A stretch of 64,000 bases of DNA, taken from Halostella limicola. GTDB lineage: Archaea; Halobacteriota; Halobacteria; Halobacteriales; Natronoarchaeaceae. This document shows, one piece after another, positions 19,142-41,044 of this stretch. The DNA lies in NCBI RefSeq assembly GCF_003675875.1, contig NZ_RCDI01000001.1, positions 310,001 through 374,000 of the forward strand, given 5' to 3'. Position 1 is the first letter of the stretch, and each line of letters begins with the position of its first letter. The position numbers and the translations under genes are program-made. The notes under the pieces are model-generated. The model worked only from the letters and a program-made list of their open reading frames with translations, did not search any database and was not told the origin of the DNA.

Positions 19142-19975
19142 TCAGTAATCGCCCAGAACCCCGAGGCGGCGCGCCCGTCGCGTCGAGTACTGGAACACCG
19201 CGTAGCCGAGCGCGAGGTAGCCGACGGCGGTCCCGACCAGGATCCCCAGGTCGACGAGCGAGAACTCCCAGAGCCGGGTCCCGTCGATCATCGCCCGCTG
19301 GAGGAGCGCGCTCCCGTGAGCCAGCGGGAGCGCCCGCGTCCAGCCCAGGTCGAACGCGGGGGCGGAGATCAGCACGACGAAGCCGAACTGCAGGAGGTTC
19401 AGCCAGTTGCCGATCCGCTTGTACAGCACGGTGATGCCGCCGGCGGCGAAGCCGAGGCCGAGCACCGACGCGATGCTGAGCGCGGACACGGCGACGACGG
19501 TCAGGACGTTGATCCGGAGCGCGGTGTCGGTGATGAGGAGCATCGCCAGCAGGACGACCGCCGACGTGAGGAACGTCCGGACGACCTTCGCGACGCCCTT
19601 GAGGAGCGCGACCGGCGCGAACCCGAACGGCGTCATCACGTGTCGCTCCAGCGTGCCCCACTGGACCTCGCTGCCGATGTCGTTCGATATCGAGGAGTAC
19701 GCGCCCACCGACAGCGTCCACAGGAAGTAGCCGACGATGATGCCCTCGATGGAGTCGGTGAGCGCCCGCCCGGCGATCATCCGGCCGCCGTAGAACAGCA
19801 GGCCGAAGAAGAACAGCGAGACGACGACGCCGCCGACGGCGTTGGCCGGATAGCGGACGAAGATCAGGAACTCGCGGTACAGCACGGCCGCCGCGAGGTC
19901 GAGATAGCCGGCCTCGCGGGGCGTAGACGCGTCCTCGCGGGGCGCGGATGCGACCCTGCGGTCGTCAGAACTCAT
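19142..19975 (-). CDS. ABC-2 type transporter permease
   Basis: 277 residues. A charged N-terminus (1-22) is followed by six predicted transmembrane helices, typical of ABC-2 exporters (first near 45-65; last near 240-262, with a cytoplasmic Arg-rich tail). GSEVQWGTLERHVMTPFG near residue 102 matches the conserved cytoplasmic loop that couples to the ATPase (usually E-x-G-T-L-E). It is encoded directly downstream of its ATPase, with a four-base overlap (19972-19975). Substrate unknown; ABC-2 pairs export drugs, lipids or polysaccharides. Confidence 0.85.
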   Translation of the reverse strand: MSSDDRRVASAPREDASTPREAGYLDLAAAVLYREFLIFVRYPANAVGGVVVSLFFFGLLFYGGRMIAGRALTDSIEGIIVGYFLWTLSVGAYSSISNDIGSEVQWGTLERHVMTPFGFAPVALLKGVAKVVRTFLTSAVVLLAMLLITDTALRINVLTVVAVSALSIASVLGLGFAAGGITVLYKRIGNWLNLLQFGFVVLISAPAFDLGWTRALPLAHGSALLQRAMIDGTRLWEFSLVDLGILVGTAVGYLALGYAVFQYSTRRARRLGVLGDY

Positions 19976-21177
19976 CGGTCTCCCCGGTCGCCCGCGGTGA
20001 GTTCGACGAACACGTCCTCCATGTCCGGTTCGATGGTCACGACCCGATCGAGCGTCACCCCGCGCGTTCGCAGGAACGCCATCACCGCGTAGAGCCCCTC
20101 GCTGTCGGCCGTCACCTCGACGCGCGCGCCGGGATCGAGCTGTTCGACGCCGGTCACGTCGAACCGGTCGCGCAGCTCCGCGAGCAGCTCCCGGTCGAAG
20201 TCGCGGCTCGCGATCCGGACGCGGTGTGCGTCGTCGCCGCTCCGGAGCAGGGCGTCGACGGCGTCGTCGGCGACGATCCGGCCGTCCGCCATGACGATGA
20301 CGCGGTCGCAGACCGTCTCGACGACGTCCATGTCGTGGCTGCTCAGCACGACGGTCAGCCCCTCCTCGGTCGCCAGGCGGCGGAGTTCCCGCTGGAGCGT
20401 CCGCGCGCTCTCGACGTCTAACCCGAGCGTCGGCTCGTCGAGAAACACCACGTCCGCGCCGCCGGCGAGCACGCTCGCGAGCGACACCTTCTGCTTCATC
20501 CCACGCGAGAGGTCGCGGACCGGGACGTCCGCCTTCTCCGCGAGTTCGAGGCGGTCGAGCAGGCGCTCCTGGCGGTCGGCCACCGAGTCCGGGTCGACGC
20601 CGCTGACCGTCGCGAAGTACCGGAGGTTCTCCCGGACGGTGAGCCGCCAGTAGTCGTTGCGCGCGCCCTCGAGCATGGCGTCGACGTGCGCGTACGCGGC
20701 GCGCGGGTCGTCCTGAGCGTCGACGCCGCTGATCCGGATCTCGCCCTCGTCCGGCAGCACCATCCCGAGAACGGATTTGATCAGGGTGGTCTTCCCCGCG
20801 CCGTTCGGTCCGAGGATCCCGACGACGGCCCCGGCCTCGATCTCGAAGGAGACTCCGTCGACCGCCGTCACTGCGTCGTCGCCGGTCCGGAACCGCTTGC
20901 GGAGCCCCTCGACGGCGACGGCGACCTCGGCCGCGCTCTCACGGTCCGCGTGGACGCCGCCAGCCGCTTCGTCCTCGCCGCCAGTCGCCATGTCATCGAC
21001 GGCATCTACACCGCTCTCGCGGACGCCTGCACCGTTCTCGCCGATGCCCGCACCGCTCTCGCCCTCGTCGCAGGTGCGCGTCCGCTCCCGAGAACCGGCC
21101 GCGTCGGTGTCCCGAACCGACGCTGACGGGCTCTCGTCCTCGTCTGCGACCGACCCGCCGTCGTCTCGCGTAGTCAT
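19972..21177 (-). CDS. ABC transporter ATP-binding protein with long acidic N-terminal extension
   Basis: 401 residues. Walker A GPNGAGKTT is near residue 119, the Q-loop region lies around the HVDAMLEGARN segment, the signature is LSRGMKQK (degenerate LSGGQ, usual for ABC-2 exporters), Walker B is VVFLDEP and the H-loop is SSHDMD. A C-terminal domain (about 320-400) follows. The first 70 residues are low complexity with near-repeats (GAGIGENGAGV); an internal ATG at 20991 would remove them, but a TATA-like AGTTTATC at 21202-21209 favours the upstream start. It forms an exporter with the overlapping permease gene. Confidence 0.85.
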   Translation of the reverse strand: MTTRDDGGSVADEDESPSASVRDTDAAGSRERTRTCDEGESGAGIGENGAGVRESGVDAVDDMATGGEDEAAGGVHADRESAAEVAVAVEGLRKRFRTGDDAVTAVDGVSFEIEAGAVVGILGPNGAGKTTLIKSVLGMVLPDEGEIRISGVDAQDDPRAAYAHVDAMLEGARNDYWRLTVRENLRYFATVSGVDPDSVADRQERLLDRLELAEKADVPVRDLSRGMKQKVSLASVLAGGADVVFLDEPTLGLDVESARTLQRELRRLATEEGLTVVLSSHDMDVVETVCDRVIVMADGRIVADDAVDALLRSGDDAHRVRIASRDFDRELLAELRDRFDVTGVEQLDPGARVEVTADSEGLYAVMAFLRTRGVTLDRVVTIEPDMEDVFVELTAGDRGDR

Positions 21178-29908: not shown

Positions 29909-30124
29909 GCGGAATCCGGACTACCGACCCCTCTGCTTCGTATGGAGGATGTAACATTTACGGGCGTAGCGGACAGCCGACCAGCGGCCGCGCTCGGCGG
30001 CGCGAACGAATGTGAGCGCGCCGAGCAATCGGGAGAGGGCAGGCGCTCGAAGCGTGTCGCCGCAGCCGCGGCGACCGCGCAAACTAGCGGCCTGGTGTCT
30101 TCGCGAACGGAGTGAGCGACGGCT

Positions 30125-30145
30125 CGGAGCGGCGAAGCCGCTCCG
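30125..30145. repeat. Perfect hairpin, 9-bp stem, GAA loop
   Basis: CGGAGCGGC-GAA-GCCGCTCCG. First of three adjacent triloop palindromes upstream of ileS. Confidence 0.6.
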
Positions 30146-30178
30146 GTGGTCATTGAAAGGGCGCAGCAGTGGACGTCC

Positions 30179-30199
30179 TCAGAACGCGAAGCGTTCTGA
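30179..30199. repeat. Perfect hairpin, 9-bp stem, GAA loop
   Basis: TCAGAACGC-GAA-GCGTTCTGA. Same loop as the preceding hairpin but a different stem sequence, so the structure and not the sequence is repeated. Confidence 0.6.
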
Positions 30200-30204
30200 C
30201 GTAC

Positions 30205-30229
30205 TCGGAAATCGCAAAGCGATTTCCGA
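30205..30229. repeat. Perfect hairpin, 11-bp stem, AAA loop
   Basis: An 11-bp stem (TCGGAAATCGC, loop AAA, then its complement), beginning six bases after the previous hairpin. It is the longest of the three. Confidence 0.6.
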
Positions 30230-30271
30230 CCGCCAGTCCGCTGCAAGGGCTTTCTGTGGGACCGATTGGCC

Positions 30272-30278
30272 TTTAATA
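30272..30278 (+). promoter_or_regulatory. TATA box of ileS
   Basis: TTTAATA, about 26 bases before the ATG at 30300, indicating a leaderless mRNA and excluding upstream in-frame starts. Confidence 0.5.
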
Positions 30279-30299
30279 GTCGAGGAACACGTCTCGGGT

Positions 30300-33200
30300 A
30301 TGAGCAGGTTCGCGGCGGTGGACGACCAGTACGATCCCGACGCGGTCGAGGACCGCGTGTTCGACTACTGGGACGAGGTCGACGCCTACGAGAAAGCGAA
30401 GCAGCACCGCGAGGGCGAGGAGCCGTTCTTCTTCGTCGACGGCCCGCCGTACACGTCGGGCGCGGCCCACATGGGTACCACGTGGAACAAGACGCTGAAG
30501 GACGCCTACATCCGCTACCTGCGGATGCAGGGGTACGACGTGACCGACCGGCCGGGCTACGACATGCACGGCCTCCCTATCGAGACGAAAGTCGAGGAGC
30601 GACTCGACTTCGAGAACAAGAAAGACATCGAGGAGTTCGGCGAGGAGAACTTCATCGAAGAGTGCAAGGCGTTCGCCGAGGAGCAACTCGAAGGCCTCCA
30701 GGAGGACTTCAAGTCCTTCGGCGTCTGGATGGACTGGGACGACCCGTACAAGACGGTCAACCCCGAGTACATGGAGGCCGCCTGGTGGGGGTTCAAGCGG
30801 GCTCACGAGCGCGGCCTGGTCGAGCAGGGCCAGCGCTCCATCTCGCAGTGCCCGCGCTGCGAGACCGCCATCGCGAACAACGAGGTCGAGTACGAGGACG
30901 TCGAGGACCCGTCGATCTACGTGAAGTTCCCGCTGCGCGAGCGGGAGGGGCACCTCGTCGTCTGGACGACGACGCCGTGGACGATCCCGGCGAACACCTT
31001 CGTCGCGGTCGACGGCGACGTGACGTACCAGGGCGTCCGCGCGACGAAGGACGGCGAAGAGGAGGTCCTCTACCTCGCCGAGGGCTGCGTGGAGGACGTG
31101 CTCCGCGAGGGGCGCTACGACGACTACGAGGTCGTCGAGGAGGTCTCCGGCGAGGAGATGGTCGGCTGGGAGTACGACCACCCGCTGGCCGACGAGGTGC
31201 CGGACCACCCGTCCGGCGAGGACGCGCTGCAGGTGTACACCGCCGACTACGTCGAGGTCGACCGCACCGGTCTCGTCCACTCCGCGCCCGGCCACGGTGA
31301 GGAGGACTTCGAGCGCGGCCGCGAGCTCGGGCTCGACATCTTCTGTCCCGTCGGCGGCGACGGCGTGTACGACGAGAGCGCCGGCGAGTACGCCGGCCAG
31401 TTCGTCAAGGAGGCCGACGAGGACATCATCGCCGACCTCCAGGAGAAGGGCCTGATGCTCGACGCCGGGACGACCCACCACAGCTACGGCCACTGCTGGC
31501 GCTGCGACACGGGCATCATCCAGATCGTCACGGACCAGTGGTTCATCACGATCACCGACATCAAGGACGAGCTGCTGGAGAACATCGAGGACAGCGAGTG
31601 GCACCCGCAGTGGGCGCGGGACAACCGCTTCCGGGACTTCGTCGAGGACGCGCCGGACTGGAACGTCTCGCGCCAGCGCTACTGGGGCATCCCGATCCCC
31701 ATCTGGACACCCGAAGACTGGGACAGTTCGATGGATGACGTGGTCGTCGTCGGCGACCGCGAGGAGCTCGCCGAGCGCGCCGACCAGGACGTCGACCCCG
31801 AGGACGTCGACCTCCACAAGGGCACCGTCGACGACCTCACCATCACCGAGGACGGGACGACGTACACCCGCGTCGGCGACGTGTTCGACGTGTGGCTGGA
31901 CTCCTCCGTGGCGACGTGGGGCACCCTCGACTACCCCGCAGAGGAGGAGGCGTTCGAAGAGCTGTGGCCCGCCGACCTCATCATGGAGGCCCACGACCAG
32001 ACCCGCGGCTGGTTCTGGTCGCAGCTCGGCATGGCGACGGCCGCGATGGGCGAGATCCCGTACGAGGAGGTACTGATGCACGGCTACGCCAACATGCCCG
32101 ACGGCCGCGGCATGTCCAAGTCGAAGGGGATCACGGTCGAGCCCGGCGAGGTCATCGAGGAGCACGGCGCGGACCCGATGCGCATGTTCCTGCTGTCGGT
32201 CAACCCGCAGGGCGACGACATGCGCTTCTCGTGGGACGAGACCGAGAACATGCAGCGGGACCTCAACATCCTCTGGAACGTGTTCCGGTTCCCGCTGCCG
32301 TACATGCGCCTCGACGGCTTCGACCCCGCGGAGACCACGCTGGAGGACGTGGACGACGACCTCGAACTCGTCGACGAGTGGGTGCTCGCCCGCCTGCAGT
32401 CGGTCGTCGAGGAGATGACCGAGCACTGGGAGGACTACCGTCAGGACAGGGCGATCGACGTCCTGCTCGACTTCGTCGTCGAGGACGTCTCGCGGTTCTA
32501 CATCCAGGTCGTCCGCGAGCGCATGTGGGAGGAGGCCGACAGCGGCTCGAAGCGGGCCGCGTACGCCACCTTCTACGAGGTGCTGACGACGGTCGTCGCG
32601 CTGCTCGCGCCGTACGCGCCCTTCGCCGCCGAGGAGATCTACGGCGCGCTCACCGGCGACGAGGGCCACGACACCGTCCACATGTGCGACTGGCCCGCGG
32701 CCGACGAGTACTGGCAGGACGAGCAGCTAGAGACCGACGTCGCGTACCTCCGCGGCGTCGAGGAGGCCGGCTCGAACGCCCGCCAGCAGGCCGAGCGGAA
32801 GCTGCGCTGGCCGGTCCAGCGCGTCGTCGTCGCCGCTGACGACGACCGCCTCACGGAGGCGGTCGAGCGCCACCGCGACCTGCTCGCCGACCGCCTCAAC
32901 GCCCGCACGATCGAACTCGTCGGCGCCGACGAGGAGTGGGGCGAACTGGAGTACAGCGCCCGCGCCGACATGAGCGAGCTCGGCCCCGCCTTCGGCGACC
33001 GCGCCGGCGAGGTGATGACCGCGCTGAACGAGGCCCGCGTCGACGAGCCGTCGCTCGACGCGCTCGAAGCCGCCGTCGGCGACGTGCTGGACGGCGAGGA
33101 GCTCACCGACGAGATGGTCGAGTTCGTCACGGAGACGCCTGAGGGCGTCACCGGCACCGCGGTCGAGGACGAGGGCGACGAGCGCGGCGTCGTCTACGTC

Positions 33201-33500
33201 GACACGACGCTCACCGAGGACATCGAGAGCGAGGGGTACGCCCGCGAGGTGATCCGCCGCGTTCAGGAGATGCGCAAGGACCTCGAACTCGACATCGAGG
33301 AGCGCATCCGCCTCGACTTCGAGGTCGACGACGACCGCGTGGCCGACCTCGTCGAGCGCCACACCGACCTCATCGCCGAGGAGGTCCGCGCCGACGAACT
33401 CGGGGCGGTCGAGGACGGCCACCGCAAGGAGTGGGACGTGGAGGGCGTGGAGATGGAGATAGCGATCGAGCCGCTGGCGGCGGCGGAAGCGTCGGACTGA
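30300..33500 (+). CDS. ileS: Isoleucyl-tRNA synthetase
   Basis: 1066 residues. Class I synthetase: the HIGH motif is present as HMGT in GAAHMGTTWNKT (about residue 60), and KMSKS as GMSKSKG (about 605). Between them lies the editing CP1 domain (about 190-400) with the TTPWT and GHGEEDF segments used for hydrolysing Val-tRNA(Ile). Zinc-binding CxxC pairs (SQCPRC, HCWRC) are visible, and an anticodon-binding alpha-helical region fills the C-terminal third. It charges tRNA-Ile. The TATA box at 30272 fixes the start; longer in-frame starts are not supported. Confidence 0.96.
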   Translation: MSRFAAVDDQYDPDAVEDRVFDYWDEVDAYEKAKQHREGEEPFFFVDGPPYTSGAAHMGTTWNKTLKDAYIRYLRMQGYDVTDRPGYDMHGLPIETKVEERLDFENKKDIEEFGEENFIEECKAFAEEQLEGLQEDFKSFGVWMDWDDPYKTVNPEYMEAAWWGFKRAHERGLVEQGQRSISQCPRCETAIANNEVEYEDVEDPSIYVKFPLREREGHLVVWTTTPWTIPANTFVAVDGDVTYQGVRATKDGEEEVLYLAEGCVEDVLREGRYDDYEVVEEVSGEEMVGWEYDHPLADEVPDHPSGEDALQVYTADYVEVDRTGLVHSAPGHGEEDFERGRELGLDIFCPVGGDGVYDESAGEYAGQFVKEADEDIIADLQEKGLMLDAGTTHHSYGHCWRCDTGIIQIVTDQWFITITDIKDELLENIEDSEWHPQWARDNRFRDFVEDAPDWNVSRQRYWGIPIPIWTPEDWDSSMDDVVVVGDREELAERADQDVDPEDVDLHKGTVDDLTITEDGTTYTRVGDVFDVWLDSSVATWGTLDYPAEEEAFEELWPADLIMEAHDQTRGWFWSQLGMATAAMGEIPYEEVLMHGYANMPDGRGMSKSKGITVEPGEVIEEHGADPMRMFLLSVNPQGDDMRFSWDETENMQRDLNILWNVFRFPLPYMRLDGFDPAETTLEDVDDDLELVDEWVLARLQSVVEEMTEHWEDYRQDRAIDVLLDFVVEDVSRFYIQVVRERMWEEADSGSKRAAYATFYEVLTTVVALLAPYAPFAAEEIYGALTGDEGHDTVHMCDWPAADEYWQDEQLETDVAYLRGVEEAGSNARQQAERKLRWPVQRVVVAADDDRLTEAVERHRDLLADRLNARTIELVGADEEWGELEYSARADMSELGPAFGDRAGEVMTALNEARVDEPSLDALEAAVGDVLDGEELTDEMVEFVTETPEGVTGTAVEDEGDERGVVYVDTTLTEDIESEGYAREVIRRVQEMRKDLELDIEERIRLDFEVDDDRVADLVERHTDLIAEEVRADELGAVEDGHRKEWDVEGVEMEIAIEPLAAAEASD

Positions 33501-33637: not shown

Positions 33638-36097
33638 TTACTCGGACTCGCGCCGGACGGGCGAGGCGTCGGAGCCGTCCTCGGCCGCGTCGTCGGTGGC
33701 GTCTCCGCCGGACTCGTCGAACAGCCCGTCGTCGGTCTCGTCGGTCGACGACTGTGCCGCGCCGTCGGTCCCGTCGGGCGTCTGTTCGCCGGTGTCGAAC
33801 TGGTCCAGTACCTGACTGAGGCGGGACGCCTTGCCGGCGAGGTCGCTCGCGGACTGGCTCACCTCGGTCAGCGCGGAGGTCTGCTCCTCGGCGGCCGCGG
33901 CGACGTTCTCGGCCTCCGCGGTCGTCTCCTCGCTGATGGTCGCGGCTTCGTCGACCATCGCGACGACCTGCTGGGTCGAGGCGGCCTGCTGCTCGGTCGC
34001 CGCGCTGATGTCCTGCACGCCCGTGTTGGTCTCCTGGGCGTAGCCGGCGATCTCTTCGAGCGCCTCGATCGCGTGCTCGACGGACTCGCGGTGGTCGTCG
34101 ATGTGTGCGCTGGTGTTTTGCACCTCCTTGGCGGTGCGTTCGGTCTGGGACTGGATGCGCTCGATGCGCTCCTCGATCTCCTCGGCGGCCTCTTTCGTCT
34201 CCGCGGCGAGTTCCTTGACCTCGCCCGCGACGACGGAGAAGCCCTTGCCGTCGTCGCCGGTGGAGGTCCGCGAGGCCTCGATGTTCGCGTTCAGCGCGAG
34301 CATGTTCGTCTGCTCCGCGACCTCGGTGATGAACTCGATCACTTCCCCGATCTGCTCCACCTCGTCCTCGAGCGCCTCGATCTCGTCGACGGCCTCCTCG
34401 GACTCGGCCTCGATGCGGTCGAGGCCCTCGATGGCCTCGGTGGCGGCCTCGCGGCCTTCCTTGCCGGTGCGGGCCGTCCGCTCGGCGATCTCGGCGACCT
34501 CGTTCGACGAGGAGGCGATCTCCTCGATGGTCGTCGAGAGGCCGGACATCTCGGAAGAGACGGACTGAAGGGACTCGTTCTGTCGCTCGGAGCCGTCGGA
34601 GATCTCCTGGATGGACTCGCTGACCTGCTCGGAGGCGGAGCGGACCTCCTCGGAGCTGACGGTGACCTCCTCGCTGGAGGCCGCGACGACGGTCGCGAAC
34701 TGCTTGACGCGGTCGAGTGTCTCCTCGATCGTCTCCATCATGGCGTTGAACTCCCGGGCAATCTCCGACATCGCCTCGTTCTCGCTCTCGTGGTCCATCC
34801 GCCCGGTGAGGTCGCCGGTCGCGCACCGCTGCATCACGTCGGCGTACTCGTCGGCCTTCGTCTCCAGGTGCTGGTTGATGCGGTCGGTGCGCCGGCGGGC
34901 CGCCTCGGCCTCCTCGCGCGCCTGTTCGGACTCGCGGATCTGGTTCCGGAGCGCCCCGCGCATGCTGTCGAAGGACGCGTAGAGGCGGCCGATCTCGTCT
35001 TTCCGGTGGCTGCGGAGGTCGACGTCGAGGTCGCCCTCCTCCATCCGCCCCGCCTGCTCGCGCAGGTCGGCCAGCGGCCCGACCGTCTGCCGGCCGAGCA
35101 CGACGCCGACGAAGCCGAGCGTCAGCAGCGCGGAGCCGATGATGAGCAGGACGCTCCGCCCGACGTTCTGCTGGACGGCGAAGGCGTGGTCCTTGTCGAC
35201 GGTGCGGATCGTGACCCAGTTGGTCGCGCCCACCTCGGCGTACGCGTGCACCTCGTCGGCCGACTGCTGGAACGTCGTGTTGCCGGTGGAGCGGGTCTCT
35301 GCGAGGTTGTCGCCGTGGAGCGACGAGTTGATCGCGTCGTCGATCACCATCACGGTCTCGCCGTCCTCGTTGACGATCCGGGTCGAGTGGTGCTCGTCGT
35401 CCTTCTGGATGTCGTCGAGGTGGGTCTGGATGCGCGCCACGACGACCACGTACTTGCCCTCCTGGTCCGGCACGGAGCTCGCGAAGGCGATAACGGGCTC
35501 GTTGTCGAGCACCGGCGAGCGGTACGAGCGCGAGGACATCCACACTTCGTCGTTCTCGCCGGCGCCCGACGGCGGGTTCGCGGTCGCCCACGGCACCGCT
35601 TCGAGGGTGTCCGTCTCGAAGCCTTCCATCGGGAACTCGGTGCTGGCCTCGACGACGCCCTCGTTGCTGTCGACGAGGTGGATGCTGAGCACGTCGTCGC
35701 TCATCCTGTCGCGCTGCGTCACCAGGTACTGAGCCGGCTGGTCGTTCTCCCGGAGCGACTCGCCGGCCGAGACGGTGCGGGTCTGGAGCTGCATCTTCTC
35801 GACCCACTCGCCGAGGGAGTTGGCCCGGAGCTCGCTGGTCTCTTCGAGGTTGTCCTGAGTGCTGGTCTGGACGGCGTCCTGAGCCTGGACGAAGCCGAAC
35901 CCGCCGACCATCGAGATGACGATCACGACGGCCAGGATCGAGACGACGAACTTGGCCGCGTACCGCCGCTGGATGAACGACGGCACGAGGAGGTTCGCGA
36001 CCTTCCCGGGGAGGCTCCGCGACAGCTCCTCGTCGCGCCCGGCGTCGGTGTCGATCGATTCTACGTCGGTGTCGGTGTCTTGATTCGCGTCAGGCAT
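33638..36097 (-). CDS. Methyl-accepting chemotaxis transducer (Htr type), partner of a binding lipoprotein
   Basis: 819 residues. Acidic N-terminus, transmembrane helix 1 (about 48-72), an extracellular Cache-like sensor domain (about 75-305), transmembrane helix 2 (about 310-332), a HAMP domain and a second HAMP-like segment (about 420-475). A long methylation/signalling coiled coil follows, with hairpin tip EQTNMLALNANIEASR and then GKGFSVVAGEVKELA. It signals through CheA/CheW to the archaellum. Three bases separate it from the upstream BMP-type lipoprotein gene, the layout of the Halobacterium BasB-BasT and CosB-CosT pairs. No che gene is present in the window. Confidence 0.92.
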   Translation of the reverse strand: MPDANQDTDTDVESIDTDAGRDEELSRSLPGKVANLLVPSFIQRRYAAKFVVSILAVVIVISMVGGFGFVQAQDAVQTSTQDNLEETSELRANSLGEWVEKMQLQTRTVSAGESLRENDQPAQYLVTQRDRMSDDVLSIHLVDSNEGVVEASTEFPMEGFETDTLEAVPWATANPPSGAGENDEVWMSSRSYRSPVLDNEPVIAFASSVPDQEGKYVVVVARIQTHLDDIQKDDEHHSTRIVNEDGETVMVIDDAINSSLHGDNLAETRSTGNTTFQQSADEVHAYAEVGATNWVTIRTVDKDHAFAVQQNVGRSVLLIIGSALLTLGFVGVVLGRQTVGPLADLREQAGRMEEGDLDVDLRSHRKDEIGRLYASFDSMRGALRNQIRESEQAREEAEAARRRTDRINQHLETKADEYADVMQRCATGDLTGRMDHESENEAMSEIAREFNAMMETIEETLDRVKQFATVVAASSEEVTVSSEEVRSASEQVSESIQEISDGSERQNESLQSVSSEMSGLSTTIEEIASSSNEVAEIAERTARTGKEGREAATEAIEGLDRIEAESEEAVDEIEALEDEVEQIGEVIEFITEVAEQTNMLALNANIEASRTSTGDDGKGFSVVAGEVKELAAETKEAAEEIEERIERIQSQTERTAKEVQNTSAHIDDHRESVEHAIEALEEIAGYAQETNTGVQDISAATEQQAASTQQVVAMVDEAATISEETTAEAENVAAAAEEQTSALTEVSQSASDLAGKASRLSQVLDQFDTGEQTPDGTDGAAQSSTDETDDGLFDESGGDATDDAAEDGSDASPVRRESE

Positions 36098-36100
36098 GGG

Positions 36101-37231
36101 TTATGGTTCGAACGGCACCTCGACGTCGCCGTCGACGATCGCGGTTCTGTCCGCCTCGATGTCCTCCTTCAGTTCGTCGGGGATCGCCGGCCCGAGTTCG
36201 GAGCCGTACACGACGGCGACGCCGTCGTCGTCGAGGCCGAGCGGGACGACCGACCCGCCCCCGAACTCGCCGTCGACGACGGTCCCGATGGCGTCGTAAA
36301 CCGCCGTGTCGATCCGCTTCGTCATGCTCGCGAGGATGACGTCGGAGTAGCGGGGGTTGCTCCGGGACTGGTCGGAGTCGACGCCGAGCGCGAACCGCTC
36401 GCGGTCCTGGGCGGCCTGGAAGACGCCGAGACCGGTCCCGCCGGCCGCGTGGTAGACGATGTCGGCCCCCTCGTCGTACATCCCTTCGGCGGCTGCGCGG
36501 CCGCCTTCCACGTCGCCGAAGCTGCCGACGTACTCCGTGAGCACCTCGACGTCCGGGTTCGCGTGTTCGACGCCCGCCGCGAACCCGGCTTCGAACTTCT
36601 GGACCAGCGGCACCTCGACGCCGCCGACGAAGCCGACCGTCAGGTCGTCGGGCCGGGTGGAGCCCTGCCCGGCGCTGAACTCAGTCGTCGTCAGCTGGCC
36701 CGCGAGCGATCCGACGAGGAACGACCCCTGGTGCTCCTGGAACACGTAGCTCGCGACGTTGTCCTCCTCCACCACGGCGTCGAAGAGCACGAACTTCTGG
36801 TCCGGGTGGTTCGGCGCGGTCGTCTCCAGCGCGGCGGTCTGGTCGAAGCCGATGCAACAGACCAGGTCGTACTCCGGGTCCGAGGACTCGGCGAACTCCC
36901 GCTGGAGCGCCTCCATCTCGTCGGCTGTCTCCGGCTCCCGGTAGTCGAACGAGACGTCCCGCTCCAGGCGGCTGCGCTGGACGCCCCGGTGGGCCATGTC
37001 GTTGAACGACTTGTCGTCGAGGCCCGCCGTCGCGTACACCATCCCGACGTGGGTGCCGGCGGTGGTCTCCGCGGGGTCGTCGCTGCGGCCGTCGTCGCGG
37101 CCGTCGTCGCCGTCCGAACTCCCGAGTAGTGCCTCCTCTACCGCCGTGCAACCCGCGACGGCGGCGGTGCCGATACCGGCGAGACCGCCCAGTAGGCGGC
37201 GTCGCCGTAGCGCTACCTGCTCCTCTTCCAT
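36101..37231 (-). CDS. BMP-family binding lipoprotein, candidate chemosensory ligand receptor
   Basis: 376 residues. The Tat-type signal RRRRLLGGLAG is followed by a lipobox ending AVAGC (Cys near residue 28), so the protein is lipid-anchored outside the membrane. The rest is a two-lobed binding protein of the BMP/PnrA group: GMVYATAGLDDKSFND opens lobe 1, as in nucleoside-binding homologues, and GADIVYHAAGGTGLGVF and FALGVDSDQS follow in order. The family usually feeds nucleosides (or autoinducers) to an ABC importer, but no permease or ATPase is here; the next gene is a chemotaxis transducer. TATA at 37257-37264. Confidence 0.88.
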   Translation of the reverse strand: MEEEQVALRRRRLLGGLAGIGTAAVAGCTAVEEALLGSSDGDDGRDDGRSDDPAETTAGTHVGMVYATAGLDDKSFNDMAHRGVQRSRLERDVSFDYREPETADEMEALQREFAESSDPEYDLVCCIGFDQTAALETTAPNHPDQKFVLFDAVVEEDNVASYVFQEHQGSFLVGSLAGQLTTTEFSAGQGSTRPDDLTVGFVGGVEVPLVQKFEAGFAAGVEHANPDVEVLTEYVGSFGDVEGGRAAAEGMYDEGADIVYHAAGGTGLGVFQAAQDRERFALGVDSDQSRSNPRYSDVILASMTKRIDTAVYDAIGTVVDGEFGGGSVVPLGLDDDGVAVVYGSELGPAIPDELKEDIEADRTAIVDGDVEVPFEP

Positions 37232-37256
37232 GACGCACCTTCTGCAATCACTTAAC

Positions 37257-37264
37257 TTATAAAT
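37257..37264 (-). promoter_or_regulatory. TATA box of the BMP lipoprotein-transducer operon
   Basis: ATTTATAA on the minus strand, about 28 bases before the ATG at 37231. Confidence 0.5.
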
Positions 37265-39562: not shown

Positions 39563-40099
39563 CTACTCGACCGTGACGGTCAGCTCGCACCGGTCGTCGC
39601 CGTCAAGCAGGCAGGCCGCCTCGTCGATGCTCGCCGCCTCGTCGCGCGACGCCGCGATGCCGCGGACGATGCCCTTCCCGAGCGGACACAGCTCGTTGCC
39701 CGACGGGTAGACGAGCGTCACGACGTCGCCGTCGACCCGCTCCGCGTCCACGTCGGGCGGGAACGCCTCGTCGTCGTCGCCGTCGAGCTCCGCGTATATC
39801 GTCTCCAGGTTCTCGAGCACGTCGGCGGTTCGCCAGTCGTCCCTGACGTGGGCCTTGAACGTGTCGAGGAGCTCGGGCGCGAGGAACTCGCCGAAGTCCT
39901 CCTGGAGCGCCGGCTCGGAGCGGTCGTTCCGCTCCGCGAGCGTCTCGAGGAGCGCCGTCACCTCCTCGTCCGGGTAATGCGACACCGGCAGGTAGAGCTT
40001 CGGTTCGATGCCCGCGGCGTCCATGACCTCGTCCCAGTCCTCCTCGGGCAGTTCCGCCTCGACGTAGCTTTTCAGCGATTTGTGGATTATTCCGTGCAT
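39563..40099 (-). CDS. HNOB/H-NOX-like sensor protein lacking the heme-ligand histidine
   Basis: 178 residues. The opening MHGIIHKSLKSYV, the segment SHYPDEEVTALLETLAE and the C-terminal CLLDGDDRCELTV follow the heme-NO-binding (HNOB) family order. In that family the proximal heme His lies in a NL-x2-(I/L)-H motif; here the aligned stretch reads NLETIYAEL, with Tyr instead. The YxSxR motif that binds the heme propionates reads YPSGN, so Arg is missing too. It therefore may bind another ligand or bind heme differently. It follows PRPP synthetase (96 bases) on the same strand. Confidence 0.72.
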   Translation of the reverse strand: MHGIIHKSLKSYVEAELPEEDWDEVMDAAGIEPKLYLPVSHYPDEEVTALLETLAERNDRSEPALQEDFGEFLAPELLDTFKAHVRDDWRTADVLENLETIYAELDGDDDEAFPPDVDAERVDGDVVTLVYPSGNELCPLGKGIVRGIAASRDEAASIDEAACLLDGDDRCELTVTVE

Positions 40100-40195: not shown

Positions 40196-41044
40196 TTACA
40201 GGAACTCGGCGACCGCCGGCGCGGCGCTGACCTCGCTCGCGGCGCGTTCGAGCGTGTCGGTGCCGTAGACGGCCTCGACGCCCGCCCGCGCCAGTTTCGT
40301 CGGCGCGTTGCGAGCCAGCAGGGGGTGGACGCAGGTGACGAACACCCGCGCCGCGCCGCGGTCCTGCAGGATGCCCACGGCCTCGCTCATCGTCGACCCG
40401 GTGGCGATGATGTCGTCGGTGACGACGACGTCCCGCCCGTCGACCGCGGCGTCGCTCGGCGATATCTCCACCTCCGACCCGGAGTGGCGCGTCTTCTCGA
40501 AGTAGTCCGTCTCGCCCGCGCCGTAGGCGTCCCGGACGGTCTCGGCGATGTCGAGCGCGCCCTCGTCCGGCGAGAGGAACACCGGTTCCGCGAGATCCCC
40601 GGGCAGCGGCTCCGCCAGACACGCCCCCGCGTCGACGGCGGTCGCCGCCGGCTCGAACCAATCCGTCACGGCGTCCTCGTGGGGGTTGACGACCAGCGTC
40701 CGGTCCGCGCCGGTGCTGATGGCCCGCGCCATCGCGCGCGCCGACACCGGTTCGCCGGCCTTGAACGCCTCGTCCTGCCGCGCGTAGCCCATGTAGGGCA
40801 GGACGGTGACGACCTCCTCGGCCCCGGCCTCGCGGGCGGCGTCCTGCAACTGGAGCAGTTCGACGTGGGCGTCGCTCGTCGGCGTCGACGCCACGACGAC
40901 GGCGCGCTCGGGCGAGACGTCGCCGACGCGCGCGATCAGTTCGCCGTCCGGAAACCGTTCGAACTCCACCGGCGCGAGCGGTTCGTCGAGCTCGTCGGCC
41001 AGCGCGGCCGCGAGCGACTGCGACGCGGACCCGGGTACGATCAT
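40196..41044 (-). CDS. prs: Ribose-phosphate diphosphokinase (PRPP synthetase)
   Basis: 282 residues. The PRPP-binding loop is VVVTDDIIATGSTM near residue 210; the flexible ATP-binding loop region is near YARQDEAFKAGEP (about 87-99), and the metal/ATP His lies in NPHED. It converts ribose 5-phosphate and ATP to PRPP, needed for purines, pyrimidines, histidine (hisI, hisA, hisB are in this window) and NAD. It is shorter than bacterial Prs, as in other archaea. It lies 69 bases downstream of the beta-propeller gene, same direction. Confidence 0.93.
   Translation of the reverse strand: MIVPGSASQSLAAALADELDEPLAPVEFERFPDGELIARVGDVSPERAVVVASTPTSDAHVELLQLQDAAREAGAEEVVTVLPYMGYARQDEAFKAGEPVSARAMARAISTGADRTLVVNPHEDAVTDWFEPAATAVDAGACLAEPLPGDLAEPVFLSPDEGALDIAETVRDAYGAGETDYFEKTRHSGSEVEISPSDAAVDGRDVVVTDDIIATGSTMSEAVGILQDRGAARVFVTCVHPLLARNAPTKLARAGVEAVYGTDTLERAASEVSAAPAVAEFL

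Follow-up and report, generated by a model that had tools for sequence, protein, structure and literature searches.

A BMP-family lipoprotein and its co-encoded transducer in Halostella limicola as a likely nucleoside receptor of the OE2170R-Htr6 type

What is the role of a binding lipoprotein of the BMP family whose gene adjoins that of a transducer, when well-known members of this family serve ABC importers? The question is raised by the minus strand of the window, i.e., the whole stretch of 64,000 nucleotides of Halostella limicola DNA analysed here, on which a BMP ORF of 376 aa is followed by a transducer ORF of 819 aa. Both ORFs and the three bases separating them were found as described in the first-pass annotation of this DNA. 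The features of the locus, in the direction of reading, are as follows.

37256–37263, minus strand: TATA-like element TTTATAAG (read in the sequence; putative function)
36101–37231, minus strand: substrate-binding lipoprotein of the BMP/PnrA family, 376 aa (Pfam Bmp, structure model)
37148–37231, minus strand: signal peptide with an RRRRLL motif and the lipobox AVAGC, Cys28 (sequence, conservation among homologues)
36098–36100, minus strand: intergenic gap of 3 bases from the BMP stop to the transducer start (sequence)
33638–36097, minus strand: transducer (MCP), 819 aa, counterpart of Htr6 (Pfam HAMP and MCPsignal)
35180–35878, minus strand: predicted extracellular dCache-like sensor, about residues 74–306 (structure model, Foldseek)
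34946–35098, minus strand: HAMP domain, residues 334–384 (Pfam)
33935–34450, minus strand: MCP signalling domain, residues 550–721 (Pfam)

By reading, the TATA-like element lies 25–32 bases before the BMP start codon, which is the position of a leaderless-type haloarchaeal promoter; a promoter and terminator scan around the pair gave no signal above chance with models of the sigma-70 type, which are not meant for archaea. Downstream, a long ileS-like ORF (30012–33500) converges on the pair and upstream the next gene diverges from it, so that the pair is most simply a two-gene operon. In agreement with the first-pass annotation, which had reported no ABC permease or ATPase nearby, ABC genes of the BMP type were not found within the 64-kb window. 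A single related ATPase, DrrA-like, is encoded there (19972–21177, minus strand), ~15 kb from the pair. The C-terminal DrrA-like match of this ATPase is weak, and it is not of the BMP importer type. The host genome contains three BMP genes. Two of them adjoin an ABC ATPase and permeases, and the copy in the window is the only one adjoining a transducer. Also near the pair are genes for a 178-aa stand-alone haem-NO-binding (HNOB) domain protein (39563–40099, minus strand), a homologue of which is encoded directly upstream of the BMP gene in the locus L080 (5070–5606), and, at a distance of 3 kb, for a PRPP synthase (40196–41044), which would suit a nucleoside ligand but is possibly there by chance.

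The first gene product matches the BMP family over nearly the entire Pfam model (PF02608, E = 4.8e-62, residues 62–373, model positions 3–298 of 301). Together with the lipobox, in which A26, G27 and C28 are invariant among the 14 homologues compared, this bears out the earlier assignment to a lipid-anchored protein of this family, and we predict it to be a Tat-type lipoprotein. The closest PDB structures to its structure model (pLDDT 86) are PnrA, Lbp and BmpD with bound nucleosides, and the two-lobed PnrA fold is recovered with a TM-score (target length) of 0.89 for both 2fqw and 7x0r. Similarity of the model extends to type I binding proteins (e.g., the ribose-binding protein), and RfuA (riboflavin) and AtzT are among its structure matches as well. 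Peripla_BP_6 proteins are type I binding proteins, too; the suggestion that the BMP protein has a different fold from the binding proteins of known haloarchaeal receptors was therefore overstated. Taken together, the protein is a member of its family by sequence and fold, and by context it is not an importer component, having a transducer in the place of an ABC permease and ATPase.

The transducer is full length, as had been noted: its 819 aa comprise two hydrophobic segments (near residues 44–73 and 312–336), a HAMP domain (8.6e-16) and an MCPsignal domain (6e-37). The sensor was modelled with moderate confidence (pLDDT 75), and Foldseek matched the model to the dCache domains of CtaA, PctB and Mlp24 with E values of about 1e-9 to 1e-8 (9.4e-10 for CtaA, prob 1.00). 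For the dCache_1 sequence profile, no match was reported for the window transducer, and the matches in two related transducers were sub-threshold. With PMC10104139 as a guide to the R-x-W-Y core, no such core is evident by eye near PW170, and direct amino-acid sensing by the dCache domain was provisionally set aside. A paralogous transducer (L163, G000:C3:484229–486609), the sensor of which is 38% identical, has no adjoining binding protein.

Lipoproteins that work with a transducer are known from Halobacterium salinarum, where BasT and CosT respond to branched-chain and sulphur amino acids and to compatible solutes, respectively (PMC3579733). Compared by description, BasB-BasT and CosB-CosT resemble the window pair in having a lipoprotein gene beside that of a two-TM transducer without ABC genes, and differ from it in their amino-acid and compatible-solute ligands, whereas the binding protein of the window belongs to the BMP family. 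The pairing of a lipoprotein gene with a two-TM HAMP/MCP transducer supports a partnership of the BasB-BasT kind, which the first-pass annotation had envisaged.

Is the pairing a peculiarity of this genome? We searched 292 genomes of the class with the sensor half of the transducer. The best 34 sensor matches had a BMP gene directly upstream and on the same strand without exception (34/34). A divergent further pair in one genome (G175; L174, 313–3929) has a sensor about 30% identical, and its BMP nonetheless groups with the transducer-linked proteins in the tree of BMPs. At least 35 of the 292 haloarchaeal genomes, from nine genera and six families, carry the pair, which rules out an invention unique to the host genome; the association of BMP and transducer is far beyond chance. 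Spacing is tight among the relatives, with gaps of 1–6 bases, directly abutting genes or short overlaps of a few bases; contact or overlap was seen in many genera. A scan by name found the pair in Halobacterium, Haloarcula, Halorhabdus, Halorubrum, Haloarchaeobius, Halorubellus and the MAG QS_9_68_17, and the BMPs seen in Haloferax, Halococcus and Natrialbaceae were ABC-linked. Because BMP genes stand beside transducers in many haloarchaea, they do not always accompany ABC genes, and the notion that they do could be dismissed. An ABC ATPase located upstream of the pair in Halorubrum is 28–33% identical to the BMP ATPase, and by eye the genes near it resemble those of an unrelated importer that has a lipoprotein of its own. 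A literature search for a link between BMP proteins and chemoreceptors returned nothing relevant.

A contig of H. salinarum DSM 3754 holds a lipoprotein gene and a transducer gene on one strand and, on the other strand, genes for a transducer, a BMP protein and a 789-aa transducer. The published locus tags are OE2196F, Htr18 (OE2195F), Htr4 (OE2189R), OE2170R and Htr6 (OE2168R) (PMC3579733), and as gene order and orientation agree with them, we equate OE2170R with the BMP protein. Judged by sequence, the window pair is the counterpart of OE2170R-Htr6 with regard to the BMP protein and the sensor, not the signalling half. Both share the gene pair, its order and the BMP clade, with 54% identity between the BMP proteins and 38% between the sensors. 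In contrast, the signalling domain of the window transducer shows only 49% identity to that of Htr6 but 80% to the MCP encoded at the che cluster of the host itself. OE2170R was described as a putative periplasmic binding protein that copurified with Htr6 when core signalling proteins were used as bait, no signal was listed for Htr6, and the authors cautioned that receptor clusters may purify whole (PMC3579733). This AP-MS result comes from clusters and is thus no proof of direct contact. The expectation that the pair would add a receptor not seen before is contradicted by this report of 2012: it is a known kind of system with a member already reported in H. salinarum. New are the single clade of transducer-linked BMPs, their conserved nucleoside cage and a genomic context of deoC, cytidine deaminase and phosphorylase genes.

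To trace the origin of the pair, we considered a tree of 73 BMP proteins, 38 of them transducer-linked, with the bacterial BMPs and further distant ones taken as its far end. The transducer-linked proteins form one clade (support 97/94, present in 98% of bootstrap trees), and one switch of linkage, ABC or transducer, suffices for the tree. The clade is nested within those haloarchaeal BMPs that are ABC-linked, with weak support for the deeper branches, and this nesting is most simply explained by the capture of an importer protein. The BMP-linked sensors, except the divergent L174, group as well (36 sequences, support 99), and BMP and sensor distances correlate with r = 0.96 over 36 pairs, a raw value that includes shared species history. 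The window signalling domain is 62–66% identical to the Peripla_BP_6-linked transducers at the etf locus of Natrialbaceae and 47–50% identical to the Htr6 type, whereas the window sensor has the reverse pattern and is closer to the Htr6 type than to the Peripla_BP_6-linked sensors (31–36%). As these identities run opposite ways, BMP and sensor are the unit of inheritance, and the signalling part fits the Che lineage of the host; exchange of the signalling part by recombination or gene conversion is possible. Related transducers are also paired with lipoproteins of another family, Peripla_BP_6, in Natrialbaceae and Halorubrum. One and the same etfBA-polyprenyl synthase locus holds the Peripla_BP_6 pair in Natrialbaceae (L164–L168, L170) and the BMP pair in Haloarchaeobius and Halorubellus (L088, L106).

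Which ligand might be bound? The nucleoside-contacting residues described for BmpA/TmpC (PMC13325309) map to F76, D151, F213, F238, V284, D285 and K305 of the window BMP. Among 37 transducer-linked BMPs, F76, D151, F238, D285 and K305 are invariant, and F213 and V284 occur in 36. The window BMP hence possesses the nucleoside cage known from PnrA, i.e., two Phe (F76, F238) and the ribose-binding Asp/Lys residues (D151, D285, K305), and the cage is conserved throughout the transducer-linked group, as the assumed kinship with nucleoside binders would predict. Fold and cage residues are shared with PnrA/TmpC, PnrA of S. pneumoniae and BmpA/BmpD; all of these serve ABC importers, whereas the window BMP adjoins a transducer. 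The base-tuning loop differs from that of TmpC (D27/S28 replaced by A67/T68), so that the exact nucleoside, purine or pyrimidine, is not readable from the sequence. The gene neighbourhoods point in a similar direction. In nine Halorubrum loci, deoC adjoins the pair (188.7 bits vs a cut-off of 117.3), a neighbourhood confined to Halorubrum that may go back to one single event. The sister ABC importer operons of Natrialbaceae have an adjoining cytidine deaminase gene (above cut-off) and one for a uridine phosphorylase-type nucleoside phosphorylase (257.9 bits vs a cut-off of 280.3). A nucleoside as ligand is thus well supported by sequence and context, and the unit probably detects nucleosides.

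We consider it likely that the two genes constitute a binding-protein-dependent nucleoside receptor, the counterpart of OE2170R-Htr6, which arose once by capture of an importer BMP. The lipoprotein, anchored outside the membrane, would close around a purine or pyrimidine nucleoside, and in its closed form would dock on the transducer encoded with it, at the dCache domain. Docking would then alter the HAMP domain and the signalling hairpin and, in consequence, the activity of CheA; ligand, docking and signalling are what we infer here. The single origin would lie in the BMP of an ABC nucleoside importer that was captured by a transducer. If so, the orphan receptor Htr6, in a genetically workable archaeon, gains a specific and testable class of ligands, and the binding protein of a nutrient importer was probably turned into a dedicated sensor in a single step, to be passed on later as a module from one signalling system to another.

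The BMP could instead still feed an ABC permease encoded elsewhere, given the two BMP-ABC importer operons in the host genome, while the transducer senses its ligand directly, its sensor being dCache-like and such domains usually binding their ligands directly and being able to bind small ligands by themselves. This is quite improbable, for each of the host importer operons already contains a BMP gene, and the transducer-linked BMPs branch as a clade of their own that follows the sensor and not an importer. In addition, the BMP gene has been kept beside the transducer in nine genera without importer genes downstream, and OE2170R was recovered together with the Che complex (PMC3579733). A second possibility, that the pair works as proposed on another ligand, such as a different ribosyl compound, a flavin, a vitamin or a signal molecule, appears unlikely. 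The BMP family also holds binders of other compounds (RfuA for riboflavin, AtzT), which counts against the nucleoside reading, and the BMP protein has a weak match to an NCBIfam putative B6 binder (67 vs a 400-bit cut-off). However, the BMP retains both residues of the aromatic pair and every ribose-contacting Asp/Lys residue of the nucleoside binders, nucleosides are bound in the closest solved structures for which a ligand is named, and nucleoside-catabolism genes lie near the sister importer operons as well as the Halorubrum pairs.

A further alternative concerns the output of the nucleoside receptor proposed here. Each of the five genomes of the host genus (G000–G004) has CheA, and the host che cluster (L176/L177, at ~43–52 kb of G000:C1) is intact; by eye, CheA is surrounded there by genes resembling those for CheB, C, D, W and Y. 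Archaellins were not found in the five genomes of the genus, whereas its sister genera have them. No close ArlJ was found in these five genomes either, the best matches being ~23–26% identical over ~220 residues vs 45–47% over the full length in sister genera, and FlaD/E was not found in the host genome, the one searched for it. Halobacterium differs in having archaellins, ArlJ and CheF, none of which is detectable in the host genus. Since CheF was not detected in archaellated relatives either, little can be concluded from its absence alone. The host genus has apparently lost the archaellum and kept the sensory system; as archaellin and a close ArlJ are lacking, archaellum-driven swimming is unlikely, and the output is probably a different one. 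Of the chemotaxis receptor initially proposed, the sensory transducer stands, and chemotaxis in the host is doubtful because the genus has no detectable archaellum genes. These absences favour a unit that regulates a non-movement output in the host, or a decaying remnant, for which we see a lesser though appreciable chance; the former is compatible with the proposed binding and signalling. A remnant is unlikely, since both ORFs are intact and ~80% identical in the next species and the che cluster is intact, and the missing CheF is a weak pointer for the reason given above.

The analysis thereby points out a haloarchaeal genus that has kept sensors and CheA, seemingly without an archaellum. Tentatively, and with the odds somewhat against it, one may picture its nucleoside sensor as a captured importer BMP that acts through a Che system without CheF and archaellum on a non-swimming output (e.g., pili or cell state), the BMP-sensor module having been re-attached to the signalling domains of two haloarchaeal Che lineages. 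Two CheA lineages possibly exist in haloarchaea, CheF not having been found in carriers of the long form. CheA frames of ~1050–1360 codons, matching PF02895 with 42–52 bits, were seen in G000–G008, G206 and G236, and frames of ~670–770 codons, matching with 28–35 bits, in G026, G031, G132, G024, G151 and G144.
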